Shown here: in pieces, positions 35,821 through 49,930 of the stretch
Layout: every line of letters starts with the position of its first letter
Position numbering within the stretch: position 1 is the first letter of the stretch
NCBI RefSeq assembly: GCF_022414575.1
Contig: NZ_JADWYQ010000038.1
Coordinates: 1 to 61,196 of the forward strand
DNA: 61,196 nucleotides
From: Streptomyces sp. MUM 178J
GTDB lineage: Bacteria; Actinomycetota; Actinomycetes; Streptomycetales; Streptomycetaceae
Direction of reading: 5' to 3'
Position numbers and translations under genes: made by a program
Notes under the pieces: model-generated
The model's input: the letters and a program-made list of their open reading frames with translations, nothing else
Database searches by the model: none
Told to the model about the DNA's origin: nothing

Positions 35821-36477
35821 ATGACCCGCGCACTGTTAGCAGGCGGCGCGACGGCGGTCTTCCTCGCCTCGCTCCTCGGCGCCCAGCCGGCCTCCGCGGC
35901 GGCCGGCGGCCCTCCGGCCGACCCGGACAAGATGACGATCGAGATCGCGACGGTGAACGGCTCGGGCTGTCGCCAGGGCACCGCGGCGGTGGCCGTGTCC
36001 GAGGACAACACCGCCTTCACCGTCACCTACAGTGACTACCTCGCCATGGTGGGCCTCGGCTCAAGCCCCACCGATTTCCGCAAGAACTGCCAGCTCAGCC
36101 TGGTCGTACATGTACCGCAGGGCTTCACCTACGCGATCGCCAGCGCCGACTACCGCGGCTACGCCAGCCTGGAGGACGGGGCGTACGCCACCCAGAAGGC
36201 CTCGTACTACTTCCAGGGCTCGCCCGACACCGCCGCCCGGAACCACGTGTTCTACGGCCCGCACGACAACAACTGGCAGGCGACCGACGAGACGGACTGG
36301 GCGCAGCTCGTCTGGGCGCCCTGCGGGGTCCAGCGCAACTTCAACATCAACACCGAGCTGCGGGTGTACGCGGGGAGCTCCGACCCCGCGACGACCACCA
36401 GCTTTATGACGATGGACTCGACCGACGGCGAGCTCAACACGGTCTACCACCTCGCCTGGAAGGAGTGCCCCGCCTGA
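35821..36477 (+). CDS. secreted DUF4360-like protein with a TTA codon
   Basis: 218 residues; signal peptide MTRALLAGGATAVFLASLLG...ASA. The mature part has the DUF4360 pattern: NGSGCRQGTAAVAVSEDNTA, KNCQLSLVVHVPQGFTYAI and a late Cys pair (WAPCGVQ, WKECPA), four Cys in all. Function unknown; an extracellular all-beta protein is likely. Codon 6 (35836-35838) is TTA, which in Streptomyces needs the bldA tRNA, so production should be tied to development. It lies just after the chaplin/rodlin group and before a strong hairpin. Confidence 0.85.
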   Translation: MTRALLAGGATAVFLASLLGAQPASAAAGGPPADPDKMTIEIATVNGSGCRQGTAAVAVSEDNTAFTVTYSDYLAMVGLGSSPTDFRKNCQLSLVVHVPQGFTYAIASADYRGYASLEDGAYATQKASYYFQGSPDTAARNHVFYGPHDNNWQATDETDWAQLVWAPCGVQRNFNINTELRVYAGSSDPATTTSFMTMDSTDGELNTVYHLAWKECPA

Positions 36478-36556
36478 GCCGCTCTCGCTGCGGCCCGGCC
36501 CTCCCGAGGAGTGGTCGGTTCACTCGCCCATGAGGCGAGGACCCGCAGGTGACCCC

Positions 36557-36591
36557 GGCTCTCGGGGCGGGCCCGACTCGCCCCGAGAGCC
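36557..36591. terminator. hairpin terminator after the DUF4360 gene
   Basis: GGCTCTCGGGGCG and CGCCCCGAGAGCC, perfect 13-bp arms with a 9-nt loop, about 80 bp after the stop. Confidence 0.85.
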
Positions 36592-36659
36592 CCCGGGGAC
36601 TCCCCCACGTGTCCGAAAACACGGAGCGCTCTGCGTCACGCCGCCGTAAGCTCGCGGAC

Positions 36660-37871
36660 ATGCAGGTGATCCAGTCGACGAAGCTCGCCAACGTCTGTTA
36701 CGAGATCCGGGGGCCGGTCCTCGAGGAGGCGATGCGGCTTGAGGCTGCCGGTCATCGCATCCTCAAGCTCAACACCGGCAACCCCGCCGCCTTCGGTTTC
36801 GAGTGCCCGCCGGCGATCCTCGAAGACGTGCTGCGCAACCTCGGGGACGCACATGGGTACGGGGATGCGAAGGGCCTGCTCAGCGCGCGCCGCGCGGTGA
36901 TGAGCCACTACGAGACCAAGGGCATCCCGCTCTCCGTCGAGGACATCTACCTCGGCAACGGCGTCTCCGAGCTGATCCAGATGTCCATGCAGGCGCTGCT
37001 GGACGACGGCGACGAGGTGCTGGTCCCGGCGCCGGACTATCCGCTGTGGACCGCCGCCGTGTCGCTGGCCGGCGGGACCGCCGTGCACTACCGCTGTGAC
37101 GAGCAGGCCGACTGGACGCCCGACCTCGTCGACATCGAGCGCAAGATCACCGACCGCACCAAGGCGCTGGTGATCATCAATCCGAACAACCCGACCGGCG
37201 CGGTGTACGACGACGAGACGCTGCGGGGGCTGACCGAGATCGCCCGCCGGCACAATCTGACCGTCTGCTCCGACGAGATCTACGACAAGATCCTCTATGA
37301 CGGCGTCACCCATACGCCGACCGCCGCGATCGCCCCCGACCTGCTGGTCCTCACCTTCAACGGGATGAGCAAGAACTACCGCGTCGCCGGCTTCCGCAGC
37401 GGCTGGCTGGCCGTGTGCGGGCCCAAGGGGCACGCCTCCTCGTATATCGAGGGGCTCACGATTCTGGCCAATATGCGGCTGTGCGCGAACATGCCGGCGC
37501 AGCACGCGGTCGCCGCTGCGCTGCAGGGCAGGCAGTCGATCGAGGATCTGGTGCTGCCGGGCGGGCGGCTGCTGGAGCAGCGGGACACGGCATATGAGCT
37601 GCTGACCCAGATCCCGGGTGTGTCCTGCGTGAAGCCCAAGGGGGCGCTGTATCTCTTCCCCCGGCTGGATCCTGCCGTCTACAAGATCAAGGACGATCGG
37701 CAGATGGTTCTCGACCTGCTGCGCTCCGAGAAGATCATGGTCGTGCACGGCACCGGGTTCAACTGGCACGAACCCGATCACTTCCGGATCGTGACCCTCC
37801 CCAACGCCAAGGACCTGGCCGACGCGGTGACCCGGATCGGGAACTTCCTGGACGGGTACGGCCAGCACTGA
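36660..37871 (+). CDS. alaA: alanine-type PLP aminotransferase (AlaA-like)
   Basis: 403 residues starting MQVIQSTKLANVCYEIRGPV, as in actinobacterial AlaA-like class I/II aminotransferases. Visible are LNTGNPAAFGFECP (substrate loop), INPNNPTGAVYD, SDEIYDKILYDG (PLP Asp/Tyr), the PLP lysine in TFNGMSKNYR and the Arg of HFRIVTLP that binds the substrate carboxylate. It probably makes alanine from pyruvate with glutamate. A longer frame to 36549 lacks the family start. A hairpin follows the stop. Confidence 0.9.
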   Translation: MQVIQSTKLANVCYEIRGPVLEEAMRLEAAGHRILKLNTGNPAAFGFECPPAILEDVLRNLGDAHGYGDAKGLLSARRAVMSHYETKGIPLSVEDIYLGNGVSELIQMSMQALLDDGDEVLVPAPDYPLWTAAVSLAGGTAVHYRCDEQADWTPDLVDIERKITDRTKALVIINPNNPTGAVYDDETLRGLTEIARRHNLTVCSDEIYDKILYDGVTHTPTAAIAPDLLVLTFNGMSKNYRVAGFRSGWLAVCGPKGHASSYIEGLTILANMRLCANMPAQHAVAAALQGRQSIEDLVLPGGRLLEQRDTAYELLTQIPGVSCVKPKGALYLFPRLDPAVYKIKDDRQMVLDLLRSEKIMVVHGTGFNWHEPDHFRIVTLPNAKDLADAVTRIGNFLDGYGQH

Positions 37872-37879
37872 AGCGCCTC

Positions 37880-37900
37880 CCTGATCGCCTGGCGATCAGG
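37880..37900. terminator. short hairpin after the aminotransferase
   Basis: CCTGATCGCC and GGCGATCAGG, perfect 10-bp arms around one base. Followed by an A/T-rich stretch (37903-37928) that probably holds the promoter of the next gene. Confidence 0.7.
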
Positions 37901-37960
37901 GTCAACTTTAGACTGAATCCAATGTAGGATGGTCTCTGTCAGAGGGCAGGAGGCCATCTC

Positions 37961-38347
37961 ATGTACGAGCCGATCCGCACCAAGTCCGTCCACGCGATGG
38001 CCGACGACGCAGACTTCCCGCATCGCAGCCGCGAGGAGGAGCTGGACATCCAGCTCGCCGGCCATCTGGCCGCGCTCCTCGCCGTCACCGACGAGCTGGG
38101 GCTCCCGGAGGCCGGCGACCGCGTCGCGGCCCAGGTGGCCCGGCTGCGCGGCGCACCGCCCGCCCGCCATGCCGCCCTGTCCGGCGCCGACCACGCCGCC
38201 CTGCACCGGCGCGCCCACACGCTGGCGAGTCGTGCCCTGGTGGTCGCCGCCTCCCGCGCCGACACCGCCGCCGCGATCCTCACCGCCGAGCGGATGGACG
38301 CGCACACCGCCGCGCTGGACGAGCTCCGGCTGATCGGCGCCCGCTGA
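37961..38347 (+). CDS. conserved small cytoplasmic protein, unknown function
   Basis: 128 residues starting MYEPIRTKSVHAMADDADFP. It is helical and Ala-rich (EEELDIQLAGHLAALLAVTD; HRRAHTLASRALVVAASRA), with no signal or membrane segment. I recognise it as a conserved Streptomyces protein but not its function. The A/T-rich upstream segment contains TTTAGACTGAATCCAA, an imperfect dyad that could be an operator. It has its own terminator-separated unit. Confidence 0.65.
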   Translation: MYEPIRTKSVHAMADDADFPHRSREEELDIQLAGHLAALLAVTDELGLPEAGDRVAAQVARLRGAPPARHAALSGADHAALHRRAHTLASRALVVAASRADTAAAILTAERMDAHTAALDELRLIGAR

Positions 38348-38493
38348 CCACCCGGTCCACGAGCCGCGAAGGCCCGTGGACCGGGTGCCATCCGCGTAAC
38401 CGCCCCGGCGCCGCGGACGGGAGCGGCACTCCGTGGACCGCGGTGAGGCGGACGCTCAGTCCCTCGCCCCGTCGAGACCCTCGGCGCGCACGC

Positions 38494-39951
38494 TCAGTCC
38501 CTCGCCCCGTCGAGACCCTCGGCGAGCACGAGCTGGGTGACCGTATGGCCGTCGAGGGTACGGACGGCGACCCGGTAGAGACCGGGAGCGGGCAGGGTGG
38601 CGGTGGCGCGCACCCGGCCGTCACCCCAGCCCAGTCTGAGCTGCTGGGCGCCCCCGCCGGCGGTGTCCGGGGCGTTTGCGGGGGCGACGGTGCAGCGGAC
38701 TCCGGACAGCGAGTCGACCCCGCTGAGCACGACGGGCCAGGGGGCCCGCGCCTCGACGAGGTCCGGGACCTCCAGGCCGCACCCCGGCGCGCCCTGCGGA
38801 GGACCGAGGTGCTGGTCGTCGCGCAGCATCTCCGCGACGGCCTTGAGCGCGACCCGGTCCGAGGCGACGGCCCCGTGCTGGAGAGGCAGCGGGGTGACGG
38901 CGGGTCCGACGGCCGCAGACTCCTTGTAGACCGTTCCGTCGCCCTTCACGTCGAAGAACCTCAGCCGGCCGCGCGCGTCCCGAATGAAGTCGCCGCTGCT
39001 GTGCTGGCGTACGCCGTGGCAGTGCAGTTCGGCGACGCCGTCGCGGAGGGCGAGGCTCTGCAGGGTCGTCTGCTGGGTGCCGGCCACCGCGCGGTGGCCG
39101 GGCAGGGCGACCCCTGTGAGCCTGCGGTGGGACTCGGCGGCGGCGCGGGCGAGTTCGGCGTCGCCTCCCAGGGCGGCGACGTCCTCTGGTGCGAGCGTGC
39201 GGACGGTGTCGCCGTCGATCAGGCACGCGTAGTGCGGCAGCAGATCGTGCAGTCCCGGCATGCCCGCGGCGACCGACTGCAACTGCCGGTGCGGCAGGGG
39301 TACGGGGGCGCCGCGCCCGGTGTTGAGGATCGCCGTCGCCTTCACGGCGCCGTGGAACGGCGTGCCGAGGGTGAGGACGGCGCGGGTGTCGGCGGCCAGC
39401 TCCCCGTCGTGGCCGGGGTCGAGCGCCGCGCGAGTGACCAGCCCGCCCATGGAGTGGGCGACGAAGACCAGCCGCGCCGGGCGTTCGTCGACGCGGTTGC
39501 GGCGGGCTTCGTCATGCGCGGGGTGCGCCCGCCATGCGCTGAGGTGGCTGCGCGCGGCCTCCGCGAGGAGCTTGCCGTTGAAGGCTGCCGGCAGTCGCCA
39601 GTCATAAGGGAACTCCAGTACGGCCGCGGGGTGCGCGACACACTGACGGACCGTCTCGGCCAGTTCGGTGTAGGGCTCCAGCCCCTGCAGATACGGTGTC
39701 CAGGACGAGTGCCGCATCAGCCGGACGGCCTTGATCCGGCCGACTTCGCCGGACCGTTCCCCCGGGGTCAGCCGGAGCGGTTCGAGCCCCTGGGGCCGGG
39801 TCCACGCCCGGATCAGCCAGCTCACACCGGATAAGCCCCACACGGTCCGCTGTGTGACCGTGTCGTACAGCTCGCTGCCCATGATGCCGGGCACGATGAC
39901 GACGGCGTCCTGGGTGCGGTCTTCGGTCAGAACCGGCCTGTGCTCATTCAT
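38494..39951 (-). CDS. cytoplasmic LCAT-like alpha/beta-hydrolase (lipase/acyltransferase) with a TTA codon
   Basis: 485 residues from ATG MNEHRPVLTEDR. The lecithin:cholesterol acyltransferase pattern is clear: oxyanion motif VPGIMGSEL (19-28), FPYDWRLP, nucleophile Ser167 in VAHSMGGLV, GTPFHGA, then GDGTVYKES (Asp) and PLQHGAV (His). There is no signal peptide, so it acts inside the cell, perhaps on membrane lipids. The last 90 residues form a beta-rich extra domain. Codon 40 (39834-39832) is TTA. Its start is only 20 bp from the divergent caspase-STAND gene, which suggests one functional unit. A role as membrane-damaging effector is inference. Confidence 0.85.
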   Translation of the reverse strand: MNEHRPVLTEDRTQDAVVIVPGIMGSELYDTVTQRTVWGLSGVSWLIRAWTRPQGLEPLRLTPGERSGEVGRIKAVRLMRHSSWTPYLQGLEPYTELAETVRQCVAHPAAVLEFPYDWRLPAAFNGKLLAEAARSHLSAWRAHPAHDEARRNRVDERPARLVFVAHSMGGLVTRAALDPGHDGELAADTRAVLTLGTPFHGAVKATAILNTGRGAPVPLPHRQLQSVAAGMPGLHDLLPHYACLIDGDTVRTLAPEDVAALGGDAELARAAAESHRRLTGVALPGHRAVAGTQQTTLQSLALRDGVAELHCHGVRQHSSGDFIRDARGRLRFFDVKGDGTVYKESAAVGPAVTPLPLQHGAVASDRVALKAVAEMLRDDQHLGPPQGAPGCGLEVPDLVEARAPWPVVLSGVDSLSGVRCTVAPANAPDTAGGGAQQLRLGWGDGRVRATATLPAPGLYRVAVRTLDGHTVTQLVLAEGLDGARD

Positions 39952-39971
39952 GGCTGTGAACAATAGGGAAC

Positions 39972-42494
39972 ATGTACGGGGAATGCGGGGGATACGGAGA
40001 GAGTGGGCAGAACGGGGCCCGTGGAGAGACTGCGTTAGCCGGGAGACCGGAGCCGGCAGTCGGCCGGCCGGCCGGGTCGACGGGCGGCACCGCGACCGGC
40101 AGACCGGCGCAGGGGCCGCCCGGCGCGGCGGGGTCGCCCGGGACGGCGGGGCTGCCCGGGACGGCGGGGCTGCAGGAGGCCACGGGGCTGCCCGCTGCGG
40201 CGGGGCCGCCCAGGACAACCTGGCCGCACAAGGCAGCCGGGTTGCATGACGCGGCGGAATCGCCCGGGACGGCGGGGCCATACGAGGCGACAGGGTCGCC
40301 CGGGACGGCGGGGCCGCCCAGGACAACCGGGCCGGATGAGACTGCGGGGTCGGGTGCCGGCGGCTCCGCAGGGCGCGGCTCGCTGGTCATCGTCGCGGTG
40401 GACGACGACGGCGAGCCGGAGTTCGCCAAGGCCGTCGACGAGCAGCTCGCGATCGTCACCGAGTGGTGGACAACGGGCGCGACGCCGGCAGAGGGATTCG
40501 TGCAGACGCTGCTCAGGTCTCCCGAGGAGCGCCACGACGTGGAGCGGTTTCTGCACACGTCGGGCATCCGGGAGACCGCGGAGGACGAGGCGCTCGTCGT
40601 CTACGTCACCTCCCATGGCGCGATCGGCGCGTCCAACAGGCACTTCCTGCTGCTGCCCGGCACCGACCCGGACCGGTTGCTGGCCACCGGCATGCCGACG
40701 AACGAGGTCGTCATCGCCGCGCTCGACTCACCGGCCCGCCATGTGCTGGTGATCGTGAACGCCTGTGAGGCGGGAGGCATCGGCGCCGAACTGGCCGCGC
40801 TGGTGGCGGATCTCGCCCGGGAGCGGACAGCCGGGGGCACCCTGAACGTGCTGGCGACGACGGCCGCGCGCACCCCGGTGATGGGCCGGGAGTTCGCACT
40901 GATCCTGCGGACCGCCCACGACTGGCTGAAGGACGCTGCGGGCATCACCCGTCCCCATCTGTCGCTGTCCGAGTTCCTCCAGGCCCTGGAGCGGGCCACG
41001 GACCGGCTCAACGAGGAGCGGGCGCTGTCGCTGCCGGGCCCCCGCCCGGTGCTCCCGTCCAGGCTGGGTGTGCGCACGCCCACGCTGCCCAACCCCGGAT
41101 ACCGGCCGCGACGCGCCGCCGTCCCGCCCGAGCGCGCGGAAGTCGCGGCGACGCACGACGAACTGGAGTACTGGCTGGACCGGGCCAGCGGCCGTGCGGA
41201 CGCCGACGACCCCGGCTGGTACTTCTCCGGCCGCCGGGAGCTCAACCGGCGGCTGACGCGCTTCGTCGGGGGCCCGGCAGGCGTGCTCATCGTCACGGGC
41301 GCGGCCGCCAGCGGGAAGTCCGCGGTGCTGGCCCGCGCCGTGACGCTCAGCGATCCGGCGTTCCGGGCGTCGCCGCGGTACGCGGACGCAGTGCGCAGGG
41401 CGCCCGTGGACGGCGTGCCCCCCGAGGGCTCCGTGCAGGTCGCCGTGTCGGCCCGCAACCGGGGGCCGCTGAGCCTGATAGAGGCCATCGGGGTGCGGCT
41501 CGGCTGTGAGCCGGACCCGTCCCGCCCCGCGGCGGACGCGCTGCGGCAGTGGCAGCAGCGGCTGCGTGATGTGTTCACCAAGAGCCGTACGGCGGACGAC
41601 GCGGTGACCGTCGTGGTCGACGGCCTCGACGAGTCACCCGCGCCCCTCGCCTGCGTACGCGATGTGCTGGCCCCCCTCGCCGCCTACGCCGGCGGGCCGT
41701 GCGGCACGGGCGCGGCCCCGGTTCCGGCGCAGGCGCCGGGCCAGGCGGACGGGCCCGCTCCGCTGCCGCCGCCGCTTCCGGCACGGCGGGGGCTGCGGCT
41801 GCTGCTGGGGGTGCGCAGCAGCGTCCCCGGCGCTCCGGACGCGGCCGCCGCGAGCCCCGGAGGTCTGCTCGGGGAACTGCTGGCCGCCTTCCCGGCCGCC
41901 CAGGTCGTGCGCACGGACGGCGACGGCGTGCGGGACGACGTCGCCGCATATGTGACCGCCCTGCTGTGCGGTGAGCCGTGGAGCGCCGATTGGGCACTGG
42001 CCGAGCGGGCCGCGCGGATGGTCGCAGCCCGCGTGGGCCGGTCGTTCCTCGACGCCAGGCTGGCCGCCGAACAGCTCCGCCGCGGCGACGCGTCCGCGCT
42101 GCTCGGCGACGTGCGGTGGCTCGACCGGCTCGACCGGGGCACGGCGGGCCTGTTCGAGGAAGACCTCCGCAGGGTCGCGGACGAGGGCCTGAACGCCGTC
42201 GAGGCGACGGCGCTGCTGCGGGCCACGGCTTTCGGACTCGGCCGGGGCATCCCCTGGGCGCAGGTGTGGCCCGCGGCGGCCGAGGCCCTGCTGGGGGCGC
42301 CCATCGAGCACGCGGACGAAAAGATCCGCCGACTGCTGGAAGGCCGGCTGGCCGGGTATCTCACGCATGACAGCGAGGACGACCGCGTGGTGTACCGCCC
42401 GGCGCACGAACGACTGGCGGCGATGCTGCGCCGCTGGCCGCGGTACGGGTTGGGGCACGAGGCGCGGCACAAGGCGGGGGGAACGGACATATGA
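39972..42494 (+). CDS. caspase-like protease fused to a STAND NTPase
   Basis: 840 residues from the only in-frame ATG. Residues 49-126 are 13 hexapeptide repeats (SPGTAG type). A caspase-like domain (about 135-330) shows the dyad His215 (YVTSHGAIG) and Cys265 (VNACEAGGIG). A P-loop NTPase follows with Walker A GAAASGKS (443-450) and Walker B VVVDGLDES (Asp550), then a helical STAND-type region to the end. Sensor repeats are not in this protein but in the next gene, coupled by ATGA. Codon 22 (40035-40037) is TTA. By family analogy, the NTPase would oligomerise on a signal and activate the protease. The start is uncertain because it leaves 20 bp to the divergent lipase. Confidence 0.85.
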   Translation: MYGECGGYGESGQNGARGETALAGRPEPAVGRPAGSTGGTATGRPAQGPPGAAGSPGTAGLPGTAGLQEATGLPAAAGPPRTTWPHKAAGLHDAAESPGTAGPYEATGSPGTAGPPRTTGPDETAGSGAGGSAGRGSLVIVAVDDDGEPEFAKAVDEQLAIVTEWWTTGATPAEGFVQTLLRSPEERHDVERFLHTSGIRETAEDEALVVYVTSHGAIGASNRHFLLLPGTDPDRLLATGMPTNEVVIAALDSPARHVLVIVNACEAGGIGAELAALVADLARERTAGGTLNVLATTAARTPVMGREFALILRTAHDWLKDAAGITRPHLSLSEFLQALERATDRLNEERALSLPGPRPVLPSRLGVRTPTLPNPGYRPRRAAVPPERAEVAATHDELEYWLDRASGRADADDPGWYFSGRRELNRRLTRFVGGPAGVLIVTGAAASGKSAVLARAVTLSDPAFRASPRYADAVRRAPVDGVPPEGSVQVAVSARNRGPLSLIEAIGVRLGCEPDPSRPAADALRQWQQRLRDVFTKSRTADDAVTVVVDGLDESPAPLACVRDVLAPLAAYAGGPCGTGAAPVPAQAPGQADGPAPLPPPLPARRGLRLLLGVRSSVPGAPDAAAASPGGLLGELLAAFPAAQVVRTDGDGVRDDVAAYVTALLCGEPWSADWALAERAARMVAARVGRSFLDARLAAEQLRRGDASALLGDVRWLDRLDRGTAGLFEEDLRRVADEGLNAVEATALLRATAFGLGRGIPWAQVWPAAAEALLGAPIEHADEKIRRLLEGRLAGYLTHDSEDDRVVYRPAHERLAAMLRRWPRYGLGHEARHKAGGTDI
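40116..40349 (+). repeat. 13-copy 18-bp repeat encoding hexapeptides
   Basis: Thirteen consecutive 18-bp units of the type TCGCCCGGGACGGCGGGG lie in frame in the caspase-STAND gene. Some copies are exact (SPGTAG occurs three times) and others diverged (LQEATG, PHKAAG, PYEATG). The length is a multiple of three, so copy changes keep the frame. Confidence 0.9.
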
Positions 42495-45295
42495 CGCAGG
42501 ACGCACCGGAACCGAACAAGGAGGCCGCGCCGCCGTCGCGCGTCTCACCGGCTGCGGGCGCGACCGGGGGGCCCGCGCCAGGCGACGCCGAACCGGCGGC
42601 GCTCACGGGGCTGCCGGACGACGGCGACGGCGACGGCGAAACCGGCGCCTCCGCACCCGGCGGCAGCTCGACGGCCACCGAACCACCCGGTGACGCCCCA
42701 CACGCGGCGTACGCACCCCTCACTGCCGCGCCGGCCGGGGGCAACGGCGCCCGGACCGGGGGGTCCATCCCACCCGGCCACGCCGAACACACAGCCCACA
42801 CGCCGAACCCGGCCGCACTCCCACAGTTGGCGAAGGCAGGCGACGCAGGCTACGACGACGACCCGGCGGACCCCGACCCGCCCGGCCACGCCGAACGCAC
42901 GGCCCACGCGCGGATCGCCGCCGCGCTCGCGGAGTTGGCGGGAGGCGGCGGGGCCGGGGCGCCGCATCCGTATCTGCGGCGGCATCTGGCGGGGCACGCC
43001 GCGCTCGGCGGGGTGCTCGACGACACACACGTTCCTCCGGCGCTGCTGCCGTGGCTGTCCGGCGACGGCGTACGAGGGCTCCTCGGTCTGCCCCGCGCCG
43101 GCCGCGCGCAGCAGTCGTGGCTCGCCGCGTGGGCGGCGATCGAGCCGTATCTGCGCGACGCCGACGTCGCGTCACGCCGCTCCAGCCTCCATCTCGCGCA
43201 TACCGCGCTGCGACACCCCGGCGTCCCGTACGCGCGGCTGCCGCAGGACGTCGCGGACTTTGACGGCTCACGGCTGCGGGTGCTGTGGTCGCGCTGGGCG
43301 CCGCCGGCCAACGTCCTGACGACGCTGGGCCGACGCGGCCTGTCCCTCTCGGCGGCGGCCGGCCCCGGCGGGACGCCCCTGCTCGCCGTCGGCAACGAGG
43401 CGGGCGGCATCGAACTCGTCGACGCGACGACGGGCACGGGCGTCGGAGACCGGATTCCGGCCCACGACGGGGCCGTGCGGTGCCTGGACTTCGTGCCCCG
43501 CGCCACGGGCGCGGGCGACCTCGTGTCGGGCAGCGCGGACGGCGTCGTACGCGTCTGGGACACCGGCCGGGGCACGCTGGTGCACCATATGGCGCTCCGC
43601 CGCTCGGCGTGGATCGCGGCGGTCGCGGGCTACCGCGACGCCGACGGCCGGCTGCATGTGGCGGCGGCCGGCGGGGACGGCTCGGTCACGCTCTGGCGGG
43701 AGGGCTCGGGCGAGCGCCGGCTCCCGGACCTGGCGGCCCACCCGCTGGACCGGGCTGCCTTCGCGCTCTCGCTCGCCACCGGGGCCGACGGCCGGCGCCT
43801 GCTGGTGGGGGCGGGGCGCTCCCTGCGCGTGTGGGACGTGTCGGACGCCGGGGACGCCGCCCCGCGCCTGATGTACCAGCACCCGGTCGACGTTCCGGTG
43901 CGGTCCTGTGCCGGTACGGGCGTCCCCGGCGGGGTGGCCACCGGGCACGCGGACGGCTCCCTCACGCTGTGGGACCTCGCCGGCGGTGCGCAGGCGGCGC
44001 TGCCCGGCGAGGGGGAGCCCGTCACCGCCCTGACGGCCCTCCGGACCGGGGACGGAAGGGATCTGCTCGCCGCGGCCGGCCCGGGAACCGCCGTCGACCT
44101 GTGGGACGTCGGCTCCCGCCAGTGGACGGGACGGCTCACCGGGCACGGCGACGCCGTGACCGCGCTGTGCGCTCTCCCGGCGGACGGGCCCGCCCGGCTT
44201 GCCTCGGTGGCGCGGGACAACACGGTGCGGCTGTGGGACGGTCAGGACCTGCGCCGTGCCGTGGACGGCGTCGACCCGGCCCCTTCGGCCGTCACGGCGA
44301 CGCTCGCCGGACGCCTCGGCTCGGCGCCGCGGCTGGCGGTCGGCTACGCCTCGGCGCGGGTGCAGCTGTGGGACGCGGGCACCGGGGAGCCCGACGCCGG
44401 TTTCGGCACGGCCCCGCGGCACCCGGTCTCCGCTCTGGCCTGGACGCCCGCAACTCCCCACGGCCCCGGTCGGCTGCTGTGGGCGGCGGCCGACTGCACC
44501 GTACGCGCCTGGGATCCCGCACCCCAGGACCCCGGCCGCGCCGCCGTGCCGTTCCCTCCGCTCAGGGGGCACTCGCTGCCGGTGCGGTCCCTCGCGTCGG
44601 CCGTGCTCTTTGACGGGCGGCCCGTCGCCGTCAGCGGCGGTGACGACTGCACCGTACGGCTGTGGGATCTGACGACCGGGCAGCCGCTGCTGCACTGGCG
44701 GCACGCCTTCCGGGTGCGCGCCGTGGCGGCGGCGTCCGACGGGCACGGCCGGGACTGGGTCGCCTCCGGCAGCACGGACGGGACGGTGCACGTGGTGGAG
44801 CCGGCGGCCGGCGGCCCGGGCCGGGTGCTCACCTGCCGTCAGGGTTTCGTCAACGCGGTCGCCTTCGGGGCCGATCCGGGCGGCCCGCTGCCGCCGTTCC
44901 TCGTGAGCGGCGGCGACGACGGCACCGTACGGCTGTGGGACCTCACCGCGTACGCGCCGCTGGGCGCGGTGCTGCGCGGGCACACCGAGGCCGTGGAGGC
45001 CGTCGCCGCCTGGACGGCGGTCACATCGTCGGGCGCATGTCGCGCGTTCGTGGCGAGCGCCGCCCGGGACGGCACGATCCGCTTCTGGGACGCGGCGACG
45101 TCGCGCTGCGTCCTGCTGCTGGCCGCGGGCAGCCGGGTCCGTGCGCTCTCGGCGCAGGGCCCGGCCCTGGCGATCGCGGGCGACGCCGGCGTCGCTCTCC
45201 TGGAGCTGGACGGGGACCTCGACGGTGACTTGGCCCTGCCCGCGCCCGACTGCCTAGGCCTGCCCGCGCTCGACCGTCTGGACCTGCCCGGCTAG
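42491..45295 (+). CDS. WD40-repeat protein coupled to the caspase-STAND protein
   Basis: 934 residues. Its ATG overlaps the upstream TGA (ATGA). The first 130 residues are Pro/Gly/Ala-rich and disordered, then a helical segment (about 135-270: HPYLRRHLAGHAALGGVLDD, AWAAIEPYLRDADVASRR) of the kind placed between NTPase and repeats in single-chain homologues. From about 290 to 920 there are some 13-14 WD40 blades (SGSADGVVRVWDTGR, SGGDDCTVRLWDLTTG, SGGDDGTVRLWDLTAY), enough for two propellers. It is likely the sensor half of a split STAND receptor. No TTA codon was seen in it. Confidence 0.9.
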   Translation: MTQDAPEPNKEAAPPSRVSPAAGATGGPAPGDAEPAALTGLPDDGDGDGETGASAPGGSSTATEPPGDAPHAAYAPLTAAPAGGNGARTGGSIPPGHAEHTAHTPNPAALPQLAKAGDAGYDDDPADPDPPGHAERTAHARIAAALAELAGGGGAGAPHPYLRRHLAGHAALGGVLDDTHVPPALLPWLSGDGVRGLLGLPRAGRAQQSWLAAWAAIEPYLRDADVASRRSSLHLAHTALRHPGVPYARLPQDVADFDGSRLRVLWSRWAPPANVLTTLGRRGLSLSAAAGPGGTPLLAVGNEAGGIELVDATTGTGVGDRIPAHDGAVRCLDFVPRATGAGDLVSGSADGVVRVWDTGRGTLVHHMALRRSAWIAAVAGYRDADGRLHVAAAGGDGSVTLWREGSGERRLPDLAAHPLDRAAFALSLATGADGRRLLVGAGRSLRVWDVSDAGDAAPRLMYQHPVDVPVRSCAGTGVPGGVATGHADGSLTLWDLAGGAQAALPGEGEPVTALTALRTGDGRDLLAAAGPGTAVDLWDVGSRQWTGRLTGHGDAVTALCALPADGPARLASVARDNTVRLWDGQDLRRAVDGVDPAPSAVTATLAGRLGSAPRLAVGYASARVQLWDAGTGEPDAGFGTAPRHPVSALAWTPATPHGPGRLLWAAADCTVRAWDPAPQDPGRAAVPFPPLRGHSLPVRSLASAVLFDGRPVAVSGGDDCTVRLWDLTTGQPLLHWRHAFRVRAVAAASDGHGRDWVASGSTDGTVHVVEPAAGGPGRVLTCRQGFVNAVAFGADPGGPLPPFLVSGGDDGTVRLWDLTAYAPLGAVLRGHTEAVEAVAAWTAVTSSGACRAFVASAARDGTIRFWDAATSRCVLLLAAGSRVRALSAQGPALAIAGDAGVALLELDGDLDGDLALPAPDCLGLPALDRLDLPG

Positions 45296-45526
45296 CGCCC
45301 CACTCGGCGGGCTCTGCCCTGTCGCGGCACCGGGCCGGGGGGAGCGCCTCCTCCCGGCCGACCGGTCTGCGCCCCCCGGAGTTCGGGCCATGCGCCCCCT
45401 GAAGTCCTTTGTGCGCCCCTGCTGGAATCGCCAAGTCCACACCTCGGGCGTGTCCGGCGTCGGAAGATGATCGTTCAGGAACAGGCAGGTGACGAACAGG
45501 ACCGATCACCGGGTGAGGAGCGGTGC

Positions 45527-46213
45527 ATGAGCGAGGGGACAGTGTTAGGAGCGAGCCTCATCCGGGCGCCGGAGCGCGGGGTGTGGCGGCTGGGGAAGGC
45601 GAAGGACCCCTGCAAGTACACCTACATCAGCCCGGAGGACGACAGCCGTTCGGGTGGCAGCCGCTGGAGCCTGGTCAGCTACGGCACGCTGTACTGCGCC
45701 TCCGAGCTGGACGGCTGCTTCGCCGAGGCGCTGGCCCCCTTCCGGGTCGCTCCCGAACTGCGCGCGGTCATCGGCGACGACTGGCAGCAGCAGGCCTATA
45801 TGCCGCCGGGCCATCTGCCGCGGGACTGGCGCACCCGGCACACGCTGGTACGGCTGCGGCCGGACGAGGAGGCGCGGTTCCTGGACGTCGACGACGAGCA
45901 GACGCTGCTCACGCTCTCCGCGGAGCTCAAGGAGCAGTTGGAACGGCTGGGCGTCGACTCCCTGACGCAGGAGTGCACCCAGGGCCCCGACCGCAGGGTG
46001 ACCCGGCTGATCTCCGCCTGGGCGATAGCGCAGCGCACCCAGCAGCAGGGCCGGCTGATCCACGGGATCGCCTACCGCTCCCGCTTCGGACTGCGGCAGT
46101 GCTGGGCGGTCTTCAGCGATGTGGAGCTCGAAGAGATCGAGTCCCAGCCCATCTGGCCGGAGACGGAAGGGCTGCGCACGGTGGCCGAGGAGTACGGGCT
46201 CACCATCCGCTGA
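45527..46213 (+). CDS. RES-domain toxin (NAD-degrading type) with a TTA codon
   Basis: 228 residues from an ATG after GTGAGGAGCGGTGC. RES features: an N-terminal Arg (GVWRLGKAKDP), GGSRWSLVSYGTLYCASELD and the Glu of FAEALAPFRV, then a late Ser/Arg region (AYRSRFGLRQCWAVF). RES toxins of type II modules degrade NAD+. The usual antitoxin, an Xre/MbcA protein, is encoded downstream here rather than upstream. Codon 7 (45545-45547) is TTA. It lies 231 bp after the WD40 gene on the same strand. The longer insert after residue 100 is unusual. Confidence 0.85.
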   Translation: MSEGTVLGASLIRAPERGVWRLGKAKDPCKYTYISPEDDSRSGGSRWSLVSYGTLYCASELDGCFAEALAPFRVAPELRAVIGDDWQQQAYMPPGHLPRDWRTRHTLVRLRPDEEARFLDVDDEQTLLTLSAELKEQLERLGVDSLTQECTQGPDRRVTRLISAWAIAQRTQQQGRLIHGIAYRSRFGLRQCWAVFSDVELEEIESQPIWPETEGLRTVAEEYGLTIR

Positions 46214-46532
46214 CCCACCGGAAGACCACCGCGTACCCCACTCGCCCACACGGCTGAAATCCGCCATGTCCGCCGCCCCGCCCCGACCTCGGAACAGCCG
46301 GTAAGTCCGCAGCTCAGACGGTAATGCCGGGCGCCGGTAAACCACTTGACGCTGGCTCAGGAACGGTGAACTCTATGCATAGGTGGTGGAGTTGGACGTG
46401 GTTTACGGGTAGCTTTATTGGACCGGCCGGCTTCGCAGGACCTACAACCAAGACGATCAACTGCTCCCGCAGACCGAGAGAACCAGCACGGCGCGCATCC
46501 GACGCGCAAGGGGGAGCAGGGGGGAGCTGTTC
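46214..46532. promoter_or_regulatory. region between toxin and antitoxin genes, probable antitoxin promoter
   Basis: 319 bp without a gene. TTGACG at 46346-46351 could be a -35. The 10-bp palindrome CTATGCATAG at 46373-46382 lies where an operator would be; the spacing to a -10 is not ideal. The gap means the antitoxin gene probably has its own promoter. Confidence 0.4.
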
Positions 46533-46949
46533 ATGCCCACCACCGCCCCGAGCCCCACCGTCGGCGTCAAAGCCTTACCCAAGAGTGTGGCCAGCGCCGA
46601 ACGCGCCCATGTCGCGACCGTCCGCATGTCCGTCGCGGACATCGCGCGCTTCCTTCAGGACAATCTCGGCCAACGGCTGACTGCGCGGATCACCAACATC
46701 AGCGATCCGCGCCAGGTCGGCAAGTGGGCGTCGGGCGAGTCCGCCCCCCGCCAGGACGCGGAGGAGCGGCTGCGCGCCGCCCTGCAGGTCTTCCAGCTGA
46801 TCCAGGACGCGGAGAGTCTCTACACCGCACGGGCCTGGCTGATCGGGATGAATCCGCAGCTGGAGGACGAAGCCCCGCTGACGGTCATCTCCGACGGCCG
46901 CTTCAGAGATGTGATGGTCGCGGCCCGCGCCTATGTGGACGGCGGCTGA
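46533..46949 (+). CDS. Xre/MbcA/ParS-type antitoxin with a TTA codon
   Basis: 138 residues from an ATG after GGGGGGAGCTGTTC. The N-terminal half is a degenerate Xre-type HTH (MSVADIARFLQDNLGQRLTA; QVGKWASGESAPRQDAEERL). The C-terminal half AWLIGMNPQLEDEAPLTVIS then DGRFRDVMVAARAYVDGG is the DUF2384 toxin-binding domain of RES antitoxins. It should neutralise the RES protein and repress the module. Codon 15 (46575-46577) is TTA. Order is toxin first, antitoxin second, with a 319-bp gap, the reverse of most RES-Xre modules. Confidence 0.85.
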   Translation: MPTTAPSPTVGVKALPKSVASAERAHVATVRMSVADIARFLQDNLGQRLTARITNISDPRQVGKWASGESAPRQDAEERLRAALQVFQLIQDAESLYTARAWLIGMNPQLEDEAPLTVISDGRFRDVMVAARAYVDGG

Positions 46950-46970
46950 CGAGCGCTCGCAGACACCCGG

Positions 46971-47007
46971 ACGGCCCCCGAAGCCCTGAGGGAGCTTCGG
47001 GGGCCGT
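46971..47007. terminator. hairpin terminator between antitoxin and PEP carboxykinase
   Basis: ACGGCCCCCGAAGC and GCTTCGGGGGCCGT, perfect 14-bp arms, 9-nt loop. Serves both convergent genes. Confidence 0.88.
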
Positions 47008-47092
47008 GGTGTGCGGCGGGCCGGGACGACCCACAGGTCAGGGCGGATGCCGGGAGCCCGCCGCGGCATTCGGGGCGGTCGGCCCGGAGGGG

Positions 47093-48931
47093 TCAGCCCA
47101 GGCGGGCCACCAGCGCGCGGTACTCGTCCCACAGCTCCTTCGGAGTGTGGTCGCCGAAGGTGTTGAGGTGCTCGGGGACCAGCGCCGCCTCCTCGCGCCA
47201 GACTTCCGTGTCGACCTTGAGCAGGAAGTCGAGGTCCTCCTCGGCCAGCTCCAGGCCCTCGGTGTCCAGGGACTCCCTGGTCGGCAGAATGCCGATGGGG
47301 GTCTCGACGCCCTCGGCGACACCCTCCAGACGCCCGACGATCCACTTCAGAACGCGGCTGTTCTCGCCGAACCCGGGCCAGACGAACTTGCCGGCGTCGT
47401 TCTTGCGGAACCAGTTCACGTAGTAGATCTTGGGCAGCTTGGACTGGTCCGCGGAGGCGCCGACCTTGATCCAGTGGGCCATGTAGTCGCCCATGTTGTA
47501 GCCGCAGAACGGCAGCATGGCGAACGGGTCGCGGCGCAGCTCACCGACCTTGCCCTCGGCGGCGGCGGTCTTCTCGGAGGCGACGTTCGCGCCGAGGAAG
47601 ACGCCGTGGTTCCAGTCGAAGGACTCGGTCACCAGCGGGACCGCCGAGGCGCGACGCCCGCCGAACAGGATCGCGGAGATCGGCACGCCCTTGGGGTCCT
47701 CCCACTCGGGCGCGATGATCGGGCACTGCGAGGCGGGGACGGTGAACCGGGCGTTCGGGTGCGCGGCGGGCTCGTCGGAGTCCGGCGTCCAGTCACGGCC
47801 CTTCCAGTCCGTCAGGTGCGCGGGCGCGTCCTCGGTCATGCCCTCCCACCACACGTCGCCGTCGTCGGTGAGGGCGACATTGGTGAAGACCGCGTTGCCC
47901 CACAGGGTCTTCATGGCGTTGGCGTTGGTGTGCTCGCCAGTGCCGGGCGCGACGCCGAAGAAACCCGCCTCCGGGTTGATCGCGTGCAGCCGGCCGTCCT
48001 CGCCGAAACGCATCCAGGCGATGTCGTCGCCGATGGTCTCCACCGTCCAGCCGGAGATCGTGGGCTCCAGCATGGCGAGGTTGGTCTTGCCGCAGGCGGA
48101 GGGGAAGGCCGCGGCGACATAGCGGGGCTCGACCGGGCCGGAGGCAGAGGACGGAGGGGTGAGTTTGAGGATCAGCATGTGCTCGGCGAGCCAGCCCTCG
48201 TCACGCGCCATGACGGAGGCGATGCGCAGCGCGTAGCACTTCTTGCCGAGGAGCGCGTTGCCGCCGTAGCCGGAGCCGTACGACCAGATCTCACGCGTCT
48301 CGGGGAAGTGCGAGATGTACTTGGTGGAGTTGCACGGCCACGGAACGTCGGCCTGCCCGGGCTCCAGCGGGGCGCCCAGTGTGTGGACGGCCTTGACGAA
48401 GAAGCCGTCGGAGCCCAGTTCGTCGAGGACGGGGCGGCCCATCCGGGTCATGGTGCGCATGGAGACCGCGACATAGGCGGAGTCGGTGATCTCGACGCCG
48501 ATGGCGGAGAGCGGCGAGCCGAGCGGGCCCATGCAGAACGGCACCACGTACATCGTGCGGCCGCGCATCGAGCCCCGGAAGACGCCTTTCTCGCCGGTGA
48601 AGATCTCCTTCATCTCGGCGGGGGACTTCCAGTGGTTGGTGGGGCCCGCGTCCTCCTCCTTCTCGGAGCAGATGAAGGTGCGGTCCTCGACCCGGGCGAC
48701 GTCGGTCGGGTCGGACGCCGCGTAGTAGGAGTTGGGGCGCTTGATCGGATCGAGCTTCCGGAAGGTGCCCTTGGCGACGAGCTCCTCGCACAGGCGCTCG
48801 TACTCAGCCTCGGAACCGTCACACCAGACGACGCTGTCCGGCTGCGTGATTGCTGCGATCTCGTCTACCCAGGCGATGAGCTCCTGGTGGGTGGTGGGGA
48901 CGGTGTCGGGAGCCGCGATGTCGCGCGCCAC
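47093..48931 (-). CDS. pckG: GTP-dependent phosphoenolpyruvate carboxykinase
   Basis: 612 residues from the GTG at 48931, which follows TTAGGAGCAATC and gives the family start MARDIAAP. An upstream in-frame ATG (49021) adds 30 unrelated residues. The P-loop with active-site Cys is [15 protein letters not shown] (Cys280). Substrate residues lie in [17 protein letters not shown] and [19 protein letters not shown], and the guanine-site region in [13 protein letters not shown] and [11 protein letters not shown]. It converts oxaloacetate plus GTP to PEP and CO2 for gluconeogenesis. Monocistronic, with a T-rich leader just ahead of the ribosome site. Confidence 0.97.
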
Positions 48932-49213
48932 GATTGCTCCTAAATGAGGGGTTTTGTTGTTTTTTGCCCCTTGGGGGCCGCGACCCGGATGCTTCACGGT
49001 AAAGATCTCCTTGGCGCTCATCCGGTGCCGACCGCACTCATCTGATCATCGATGCCAGCTGCCCATATGTCCAGAGGGCCTCTCACGTGAGCATGGCCAC
49101 TCATGCGTCACTCCTGATTCGCCGGAGTGCGGCGCGCGCTTCTCCTGGAGGAGACGGCACGGTGTGACGAAGACGGACTCCTGCGCCTACGGCTCCGTAG
49201 GTACCATCCCGTC

Positions 49214-49930
49214 ATGACTGCCGCCGCCGCGCCCGAAGCGACCGAGACAGCAACGACGACAGCCGAGAACGAGATATCCGCGGACCGGCACCACCTGCTG
49301 AAGCCACGACTGCGCGGCTGGCTGCACGCCGGGATGTTCCCTGCCGTCGTGGTCGCCGGGCTGGTGCTCACGGCACTCGCGGACACCACCCGCGCCCGGA
49401 TCGCCTGTGCGATCTATGTGCTCACCGCCTGCCTGCTGTTCGGGGTGAGCGCGCTCTACCACCGGGGAAACTGGGGACCGCGTGCCGAGGCCGTGCTCCG
49501 CCGCCTGGACCACGCCAATATCTTTCTGATCATCGCGGGCACATATACCCCGCTGACGGTGCTGCTCCTCCCCGATTCCACCGGCCGGACGCTGCTGTGG
49601 GCGGTATGGGTGGCCGCGGTGGCGGGCATCGCCTTCCGCGTCTTCTGGGTGGGCGCGCCGCGCTGGCTGTACACACCCTGCTACATCGCGATGGGCTGGG
49701 CGGCCGTCTTCTTTCTTCCCGAATTCATGCGCGCCGGCGGGATCGCGGTGCTGGTGCTCGTCATCGTCGGCGGCGTGCTCTACAGCGCCGGCGGAGTGAT
49801 CTACGGGATCAAGCGCCCGAACCCCTCACCTCGGTGGTTCGGCTTCCACGAGGTCTTCCACTCCTTCACGCTCGCGGCGTTCGTCGTGCACTACGTGGGC
49901 ATCTCGCTGGTCGCCTACCAGGTGCCCTGA
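49214..49930 (+). CDS. haemolysin III / PAQR-family membrane protein
   Basis: 238 residues with seven membrane helices. Family motifs: VSALYHRGNW, DHANIFLIIAGTYTPL and the C-terminal HEVFHSFTLAAF, which supply the putative metal-binding His/Asp set. The first 30 residues are an Ala/Thr/Glu-rich cytosolic tail. Bacterial TrhA/YqfA-type members affect membrane energetics; haemolysis is not implied. Divergent from pckG across 282 bp. Confidence 0.92.
   Translation: MTAAAAPEATETATTTAENEISADRHHLLKPRLRGWLHAGMFPAVVVAGLVLTALADTTRARIACAIYVLTACLLFGVSALYHRGNWGPRAEAVLRRLDHANIFLIIAGTYTPLTVLLLPDSTGRTLLWAVWVAAVAGIAFRVFWVGAPRWLYTPCYIAMGWAAVFFLPEFMRAGGIAVLVLVIVGGVLYSAGGVIYGIKRPNPSPRWFGFHEVFHSFTLAAFVVHYVGISLVAYQVP

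Follow-up and report, generated by a model that had tools for sequence, protein, structure and literature searches.

Here, we describe a five-gene unit on a 61,196-nucleotide (nt) stretch of a Streptomyces sp. MUM 178J contig (the whole stretch is hereafter called the window). A gene for an LCAT/lysosomal phospholipase A2-like hydrolase (the lipase) is divergent from a gene that fuses a MALT1-like caspase to a STAND nucleoside triphosphatase (NTPase), and genes for a WD40 β-propeller protein, a RES-domain toxin and an Xre-like putative antitoxin follow (Table 1). With moderate confidence, we propose that these genes form a mobile, apoptosome-like cell-death or conflict module in which the caspase activates the lipase and RES drains NAD+. 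An earlier note on this DNA (the original prediction) had recognized a three-gene unit at 38494..45295. Its coordinates, strands and frames for the lipase, caspase-STAND and WD40 genes all held, but the end of the unit did not, as the RES and Xre genes take it to 46949.

The association of the hydrolase with the receptor was surveyed from both sides. On the lipase side, we read 60 regions, representing the better-scoring part of the matches, and added the window. Sixty lipase matches of at least 100 bits and at least 700 bp were counted (L068 was too short and was excluded), and the eight lying within 3.5 kb of a DNA end were omitted, leaving n = 52. A STAND NTPase was present within 5 kb of 47 of these 52 matches, the exceptions being L062, L079, L064, L065 and L067. 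The last three have their lipases in open frames of more than 1000 codons, and both of those that were scanned (L064 and L067) carry an AAA_16-type NTPase in the same chain. Among the matches listed for named genomes, lipase and NTPase occurred together at 27 of 80 loci; away from DNA ends, the NTPase accompanied 20 of the 23 lipases scoring at least 400 bits (exceptions L116, L119 and L120) and 1 of the 32 scoring less. Three named loci (L094, L115 and L118) share DNA with loci of the genus set. The lipase-NTPase adjacency of the original prediction is thus borne out: the homologues were not mostly apart, and the lipase shows no sign of being a secreted one (see below).

On the caspase side, 150 genomes were searched, 52 of which had matches, and 40 further regions, representing part of these matches, were read. 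Regions were picked mostly for having no LCAT lipase seen, so that the LCAT share within this set is meaningless, and six regions (L198, L212-L216) without an NTPase match of 60 bits were left uncounted. An adjacent α/β-hydrolase was found at 26 of 30 caspase-STAND loci. One is LCAT-type (L192, whose caspase was missed by every profile and called by eye), and 25 belong to a second family, characterized by a VHGI-like strand and an AHSLGS-like nucleophile elbow and at most distantly similar to the LCAT lipase. At L177, L178, L180 and L181, the second-family hydrolase is also divergent from the caspase gene. At four further loci, a related NTPase-WD40 chain bears a trypsin-like domain, judged by eye, where the caspase would be; the two hydrolase profiles tried found no hydrolase near any of the four. 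The difference (26/30 versus 0/4; Fisher p = 0.0015) is to be read with the caveat that the four trypsin loci look mutually related, so that p overstates their independence. The second-family profile was built from the same locus set, following the motif search that found its members, and the profiles were partly derived from first-found loci, which means that the tallies are not fully independent. The pattern nonetheless suggests that it is the caspase, not the sensor, that the hydrolase accompanies. Because most caspase loci have a hydrolase and none was seen at the loci bearing a trypsin-like domain instead, we regard the hydrolase as the probable partner of the caspase itself, and this is the best supported of the steps that go beyond direct observation.

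The module is conserved as a whole. In profile scans, the full set of lipase, caspase, NTPase, WD40, RES and Xre was found in the window and likewise in 13 of the next 15 regions ranked by lipase score (L032-L046); of the remaining two, L038 stops at a contig end and L044 is arranged differently. Twenty loci, 19 of them distinct and the window included, carry lipase, NTPase, RES and Xre, and across all 20 the gene order is identical and the lipase lies on the opposite strand. The WD40 profile matched every one of them except L093, where a long open frame with WD-like motifs occupies the corresponding place. The divergence of lipase, caspase, NTPase, RES and Xre was correlated (Spearman 0.71-0.90; Mantel 0/500 for each pair). 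Flanking genes vary between most module loci. All five genes were present, in the same order, in 6/6 plasmid regions that we read, which were picked among 29 plasmid records matching the lipase; on three plasmids (L218-L220), the module is near DNA primase/polymerase genes. In the window, it sits between an aminotransferase gene and a phosphoenolpyruvate carboxykinase (PEPCK) gene (36660-49021) in a gap of 9.2 kb. The same two genes are neighbours in 17 of 18 relatives of the genus, with a gap of 0.73-14.1 kb (the 18th has them on separate contigs), and this gap is a variable cargo site. Chance neighbourhood was rejected on the conserved order, the correlated divergence, the confinement of the RES subfamily to the module and the lipase-NTPase adjacency.

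The 20-bp distance predicted between the lipase and caspase-STAND genes was confirmed (39952-39971). In all 20 loci (19 distinct), the divergent start codons are separated by 18-20 bp, and a TANNNT hexamer is found 7-8 nt from the lipase ATG. Since this spacing is kept throughout, both start codons are probably correct. The gap is probably a shared control region. An M-x-G-E/Q start was common to 5 of the 17 relatives compared.

Comparative sequence analysis indicates that RES and the Xre-like gene are fixed parts of the window's subtype. The RES protein exceeds the Pfam cut-off for the RES domain (Table 1), and a plasmid relative is annotated as 'RES family NAD+ phosphorylase'. A profile of 14 Xre-like relatives matches the antitoxin MbcA (6fkg_C, E = 2.4e-4), while the Xre-like protein reaches 13.1 bits against the curated RES/Xre antitoxin model NF049845, under its cut-off of 90. 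The RES subfamily matched in 17 of the 392 genomes of the genus. Sixteen matches were strong, and 16/16 of these belong to the module (14 fall in previously read regions and two on contigs that stop within it); a weak 17th (G315) is outside the tally. Short open frames between RES and Xre vary among 15 loci, and no further conserved gene there was convincing. The GTT-N13-GGGTA element upstream of the Xre-like gene (46391-46411) has the same spacing in L032-L035, by eye in an alignment, and is degenerate in L092; we take it to resemble a SigB-type stress promoter. It is possible, although we lean against it, that the pair is a plasmid-type addiction module merely stuck beside the receptor: RES/Xre pairs also occur as toxin-antitoxin systems in their own right, and the unit is carried on plasmids. 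However, a RES subfamily confined to the module, occupying a constant place and diverging along with its neighbours, argues against this.

The original prediction of an LCAT-type hydrolase with Ser167, GDGTV and QHG motifs proved sound. The window protein scored 30.1 bits against PF02450 (LCAT; Pfam cut-off 21), and Ser167, Asp338 (GDGTV) and His359 (QHG) are conserved in 121/121, 121/121 and 120/121 aligned sequences, respectively. Its model matched the folds of lysosomal phospholipase A2 and LCAT, with about 21% identity to lysosomal phospholipase A2. The complete triad and this fold point to an enzyme acting on lipid. Because hydropathy (no signal-peptide program was used) revealed no N-terminal hydrophobic stretch in the window lipase or in 120 database relatives, the lipase is probably cytoplasmic, as had been predicted, and a secreted lipase was rejected on the same analysis. 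This sets it apart from the LCAT/lysosomal phospholipase A2 family, for which a secreted or lysosomal location, marked by an N-terminal signal, would be expected. A lipase match was present in 70 of the 392 genomes of the genus.

In the neighbouring protein, His215, Cys265, the Walker A GKS and the Walker B D..DE are invariant in 121/121 aligned sequences, in agreement with the predicted caspase-like protease fused to a P-loop STAND NTPase. Model folds resemble MALT1 for the caspase and NB-ARC/Apaf-1 for the NTPase, with Apaf-1 and CED-4 ranking near the top; in these PDB-based searches, a family missing from the results is not thereby excluded. The best Pfam match of the NTPase was AAA_16 (23.6 bits, under the cut-off of 32.6), and the sole NCBIfam match of the caspase domain was NF047832 of the EACC1 system (48.3 bits versus a cut-off of 140). 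A caspase-like His...Cys region was recognized by eye in all 20 NTPase N-termini compared, from 19 loci, including divergent ones that the first profile had missed. In the window, a Gly/Pro/Ala-rich linker encoded by a tandem repeat (40112-40352) precedes the caspase, and the N-termini are shorter in the relatives compared.

The predicted ATGA coupling of the caspase-STAND and WD40 genes was also confirmed. The WD40 protein scored 145.7 bits against Pfam WD40 and has 13 WD motifs in phase at steps of about 45 residues (14 regex matches, one out of phase), consistent with the 13-14 blades foreseen. That the receptor is split over two proteins is true in the window, but it is not defining, as many relatives carry caspase, NTPase and WD40 in a single chain of about 1450 residues; the split and the fused state both occur. 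The propeller diverges more than any other part of the module, with a mean pairwise identity of 0.36 as opposed to 0.44-0.62 for the others (lipase 0.55, RES 0.55 and Xre 0.62 over the same loci, 18 of the 19 distinct ones), which supports its presumed role as a sensor, a part expected to diverge under pressure.

How the module might work can be outlined as follows. The WD40 propeller would bind a trigger, probably a product of a phage or another invader, and nucleotide-driven assembly of the STAND NTPase would bring the caspase domains together. The active caspase would then switch on the dedicated hydrolase by proteolysis, so that the cell's own phospholipids are broken down. In the window's subtype, the caspase or the crisis itself perhaps removes the Xre antitoxin, allowing the RES toxin to drain NAD+, and cell death would precede the spread of the invader.

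Several observations weigh against the mechanism, including the anti-phage action and the effector role of the lipase that we infer. Four of the 30 caspase-STAND loci have no hydrolase (L197, L209 and, close to the end of a contig, L206 and L211), and the relatedness of the four trypsin loci belongs here as well. At L044, whose lipase is 53% identical to that of the window, lipase, NTPase and WD40 are arranged otherwise, and both RES and Xre are missing; RES/Xre is thus not tied to every close lipase. The Xre assignment itself is based on a modest profile score. In the lipase, neither a gating loop nor a conserved cleavage site could be recognized that would convincingly mark it as a pro-enzyme, and in its linker at residues ~381-390, where model confidence is low, no caspase cut site could be named by eye. 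The lipase had no match among 50,697 phage records. Finally, PADLOC assigned no named system, its one match being the WD40 protein to part of HEAT-ARM_XIII.

A more far-reaching version of the mechanism, which we consider somewhat unlikely, has two executioners: once an invader is sensed, the caspase would cut a pro-phospholipase, yielding an active enzyme that destroys the membrane, and would also destroy Xre, freeing RES to destroy NAD+, and the STAND protein would accept swappable cassettes of a protease with its substrate effector. If so, the toxin-antitoxin pair would be a hard-wired arm of the caspase pathway, and the cassettes on the STAND chassis would pair a caspase with a hydrolase and a trypsin with something else. 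Rather unlikely, in our view, is that lipase and caspase are independent effectors, both turned on by STAND assembly, with the caspase having no action on the lipase. The fused chains of L064 and L067, in which lipase and a STAND-type NTPase occur without a Pfam caspase, fit such an arrangement, as does the want of a recognisable cleavage site in the lipase. On the other hand, the hydrolase follows the presence of the caspase, with none found next to the trypsin version of the chassis, and even at L061 a trypsin-domain protease is within reach, beyond the EAD1 gene next to the lipase gene. Developmental programmed death of the Streptomyces mycelium, rather than phage defence, appears improbable. 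All 27 named loci with lipase and NTPase, among the matches listed, are actinobacterial going by their record titles and mostly from mycelial genera, and a stress-promoter-like element precedes the Xre gene; however, patchy presence (70/392), plasmid carriage, a variable chromosomal site and a divergent sensor typify conflict systems rather than core development, and a caspase-NTPase relative also came from a Comamonadaceae metagenome bin. Least probable is that the hydrolase restrains the caspase-STAND protein, as an inhibitor or by removing an anchoring acyl group: the close pairing and the short divergent region would also fit a regulator, but the full triad, the phospholipase A2/LCAT fold and the identity to lysosomal phospholipase A2 point to a lipid enzyme, and a second hydrolase family in the same place fits an exchangeable enzymatic effector better. 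We continue to favour activation of the lipase by the caspase, and the compactness of the five-gene unit makes it directly testable, in laboratory Streptomyces, whether the caspase activates the phospholipase and controls the toxin-antitoxin pair.

Relatives of the lipase were also seen in other settings. In a sister group (e.g., L047), two genes come after those for the lipase and the caspase-NTPase (L047:1803-5501 and L047:4-1806): one for a kinase-like/superfamily 1 (SF1)-helicase protein, whose matches to the PLuB and MAD6 models were under the cut-off, and one of no known family. More distant lipases adjoin CHAT-domain (caspase-like) genes in L117, L119 and L120, and VMAP-C and MoxR-like genes in L132. 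In L061, the lipase-bearing gene adjoins an EAD1-domain gene, beyond which is a trypsin-domain gene with a sub-threshold EAD1 match. An AAA_16-type NTPase and an LCAT/PGAP1-like lipase share one polypeptide at L064:6206-10699 and L067:7111-11391. In both, the lipase domain is under the cut-off of the LCAT model and above that of PGAP1, TPR is weakly supported in L067 only, and the gene before the fused chain belongs to the same cluster that carries EAD1 in L061. Distant lipase-caspase-NTPase pairs (L069-L089) occur at two chromosomal places, one next to clusters f9/f10/f11 and the other next to clusters f6/f8/f13, which, from a look at the sequence, we take to be the nadA, sucB and glnE regions. 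Two equal copies of a caspase-NTPase gene (G091:C1:73434-75447 and 10191204-10193217; one is L181) are near both ends of a contig, as if placed in terminal inverted repeats.

Table 1 Features of the module in the 61,196-nt window of the Streptomyces sp. MUM 178J contig
Feature	Position	Strand	Details
LCAT/lysosomal phospholipase A2-like hydrolase, 485 residues	38494..39951	-	Triad Ser167, Asp338, His359
Ig/filamin-like β-sandwich, C-terminus of the lipase	~residues 392-478 of hydrolase 38494..39951
Gap between divergent lipase and caspase start codons, 20 bp	39952..39971		On the lipase strand, a TANNNT hexamer whose end is 8 nt upstream of the lipase ATG
MALT1-like caspase fused to STAND/AP-ATPase-type NTPase, 840 residues	39972..42494	+	His215/Cys265; Walker A GAAASGKS, Walker B VVVDGLDE
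18/54-bp tandem repeat in the caspase gene, encoding the Gly/Pro/Ala-rich linker ahead of the caspase domain	40112..40352	+
WD40 β-propeller protein, 934 residues, 13-14 blades, presumed sensor	42491..45295	+	ATGA overlap with the caspase-STAND gene
RES-domain toxin, NAD+-consuming by family	45467..46213	+	PF08808, 43.2 bits (cut-off 23.2)
GTT-N13-GGGTA element upstream of the Xre-like gene	46391..46411	+	The window has two such matches
Xre/MbcA-like putative antitoxin, 138 residues	46533..46949	+	Profile match to MbcA; position kept in 19 distinct loci

Among named relatives, the caspase gene is closest to one from Streptomyces sp. PR69 (93% identity). A two-copy 38-bp repeat (95% matches) at 38448-38530 spans the 3' end of the lipase gene. 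No Rfam family reached its gathering score in 36000-49500, no sigma-70 consensus promoter was found in 38300-47200, and the one terminator found by scanning 38300-47200 is no more than expected by chance.

We compared the module with known systems. The original prediction held that the lipase partnership is not a standard named system. This stands insofar as PADLOC names none, but the pairing of a caspase with an α/β-hydrolase has a precedent in the VMAP conflict systems (Kaur et al. 2020, PMC7159879). The VMAP/MoxR-vWA ternary systems described there likewise have a caspase and an α/β-hydrolase gene; they differ from the module in having VMAP-C, MoxR and vWA, none of which was found in the five module proteins (for the WD40 protein, among the best 25 of 27 families), where the core is STAND-WD40 with RES/Xre. 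Some members of the two-gene EACC1 system (Kaur et al. 2020) combine a caspase with a C-terminal STAND, like the window. In contrast, the NF047832 score of the window caspase is far under the cut-off, and no membrane-spanning partner is present among the five proteins, none of which exceeds a Kyte-Doolittle value of 1.53 over any 19 residues. Proteases, one of them a caspase, activate pro-nucleases, and other enzyme classes have been suggested as possible targets (PMC12799240). In canu, a phage-defence caspase switches on a pro-enzyme, and both canu and the trypsin-nuclease pairs of that study resemble the window in pairing a protease with a separate enzyme gene (PMC12799240). The canu partner is an MBL-fold nuclease, whereas that of the window is lipid-hydrolase-like, with no MBL domain in the five proteins and an activation that we only propose. 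Membership in VMAP, EACC1 or canu was rejected on the missing family genes, the NF047832 score and the lack of a membrane helix. Metacaspase-NACHT-WD40 proteins, described as widespread (Asplund-Samuelsson et al. 2012, PMC3501461), have caspase, NTPase and WD40 in the same order, and the His/Cys dyad is present in the window too. The window differs from them in its two genes, an NTPase nearest NB-ARC/Apaf-1 in the fold search and the tie to a hydrolase and RES/Xre. α/β-Hydrolases have been mentioned as membrane-lipid enzymes in such systems (PMC8195603).

No description of a lipase/caspase-STAND-WD40/RES/Xre unit was found in the literature as searched by titles and abstract openings, with subscription papers and preprints largely outside the search. 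As far as this search reaches, 1) the association of STAND-WD40 receptors with hydrolases of two families, 2) the trypsin contrast, and 3) the addition of RES/Xre and the 18-20 bp divergent region are new. The work thereby widens the published remark on caspase/α/β-hydrolase neighbours, in that, on STAND receptors, hydrolases of two families appear to accompany the caspase, with none found at the loci that have a trypsin-like domain in its place.

With type II RES/Xre systems (MbcT/MbcA), the module shares a RES protein above the Pfam cut-off; its Xre-like partner aligns to MbcA at a modest profile score and falls under the NF049845 cut-off. The usual RES/Xre gene order is the reverse of the toxin-first order seen here, where 323-753 bp separate the aligned parts and the pair is tied to a caspase module. 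Like the Apaf-1/CED-4 apoptosome of animals, the module combines an NB-ARC-type NTPase, WD40 and caspase activity, but its caspase is in cis, its partners are a lipase and RES, and it is prokaryotic. If the proposed activation of the lipase is correct, the module would be a bacterial lipid-cutting counterpart to the caspase-activated nuclease and gasdermin pathways.
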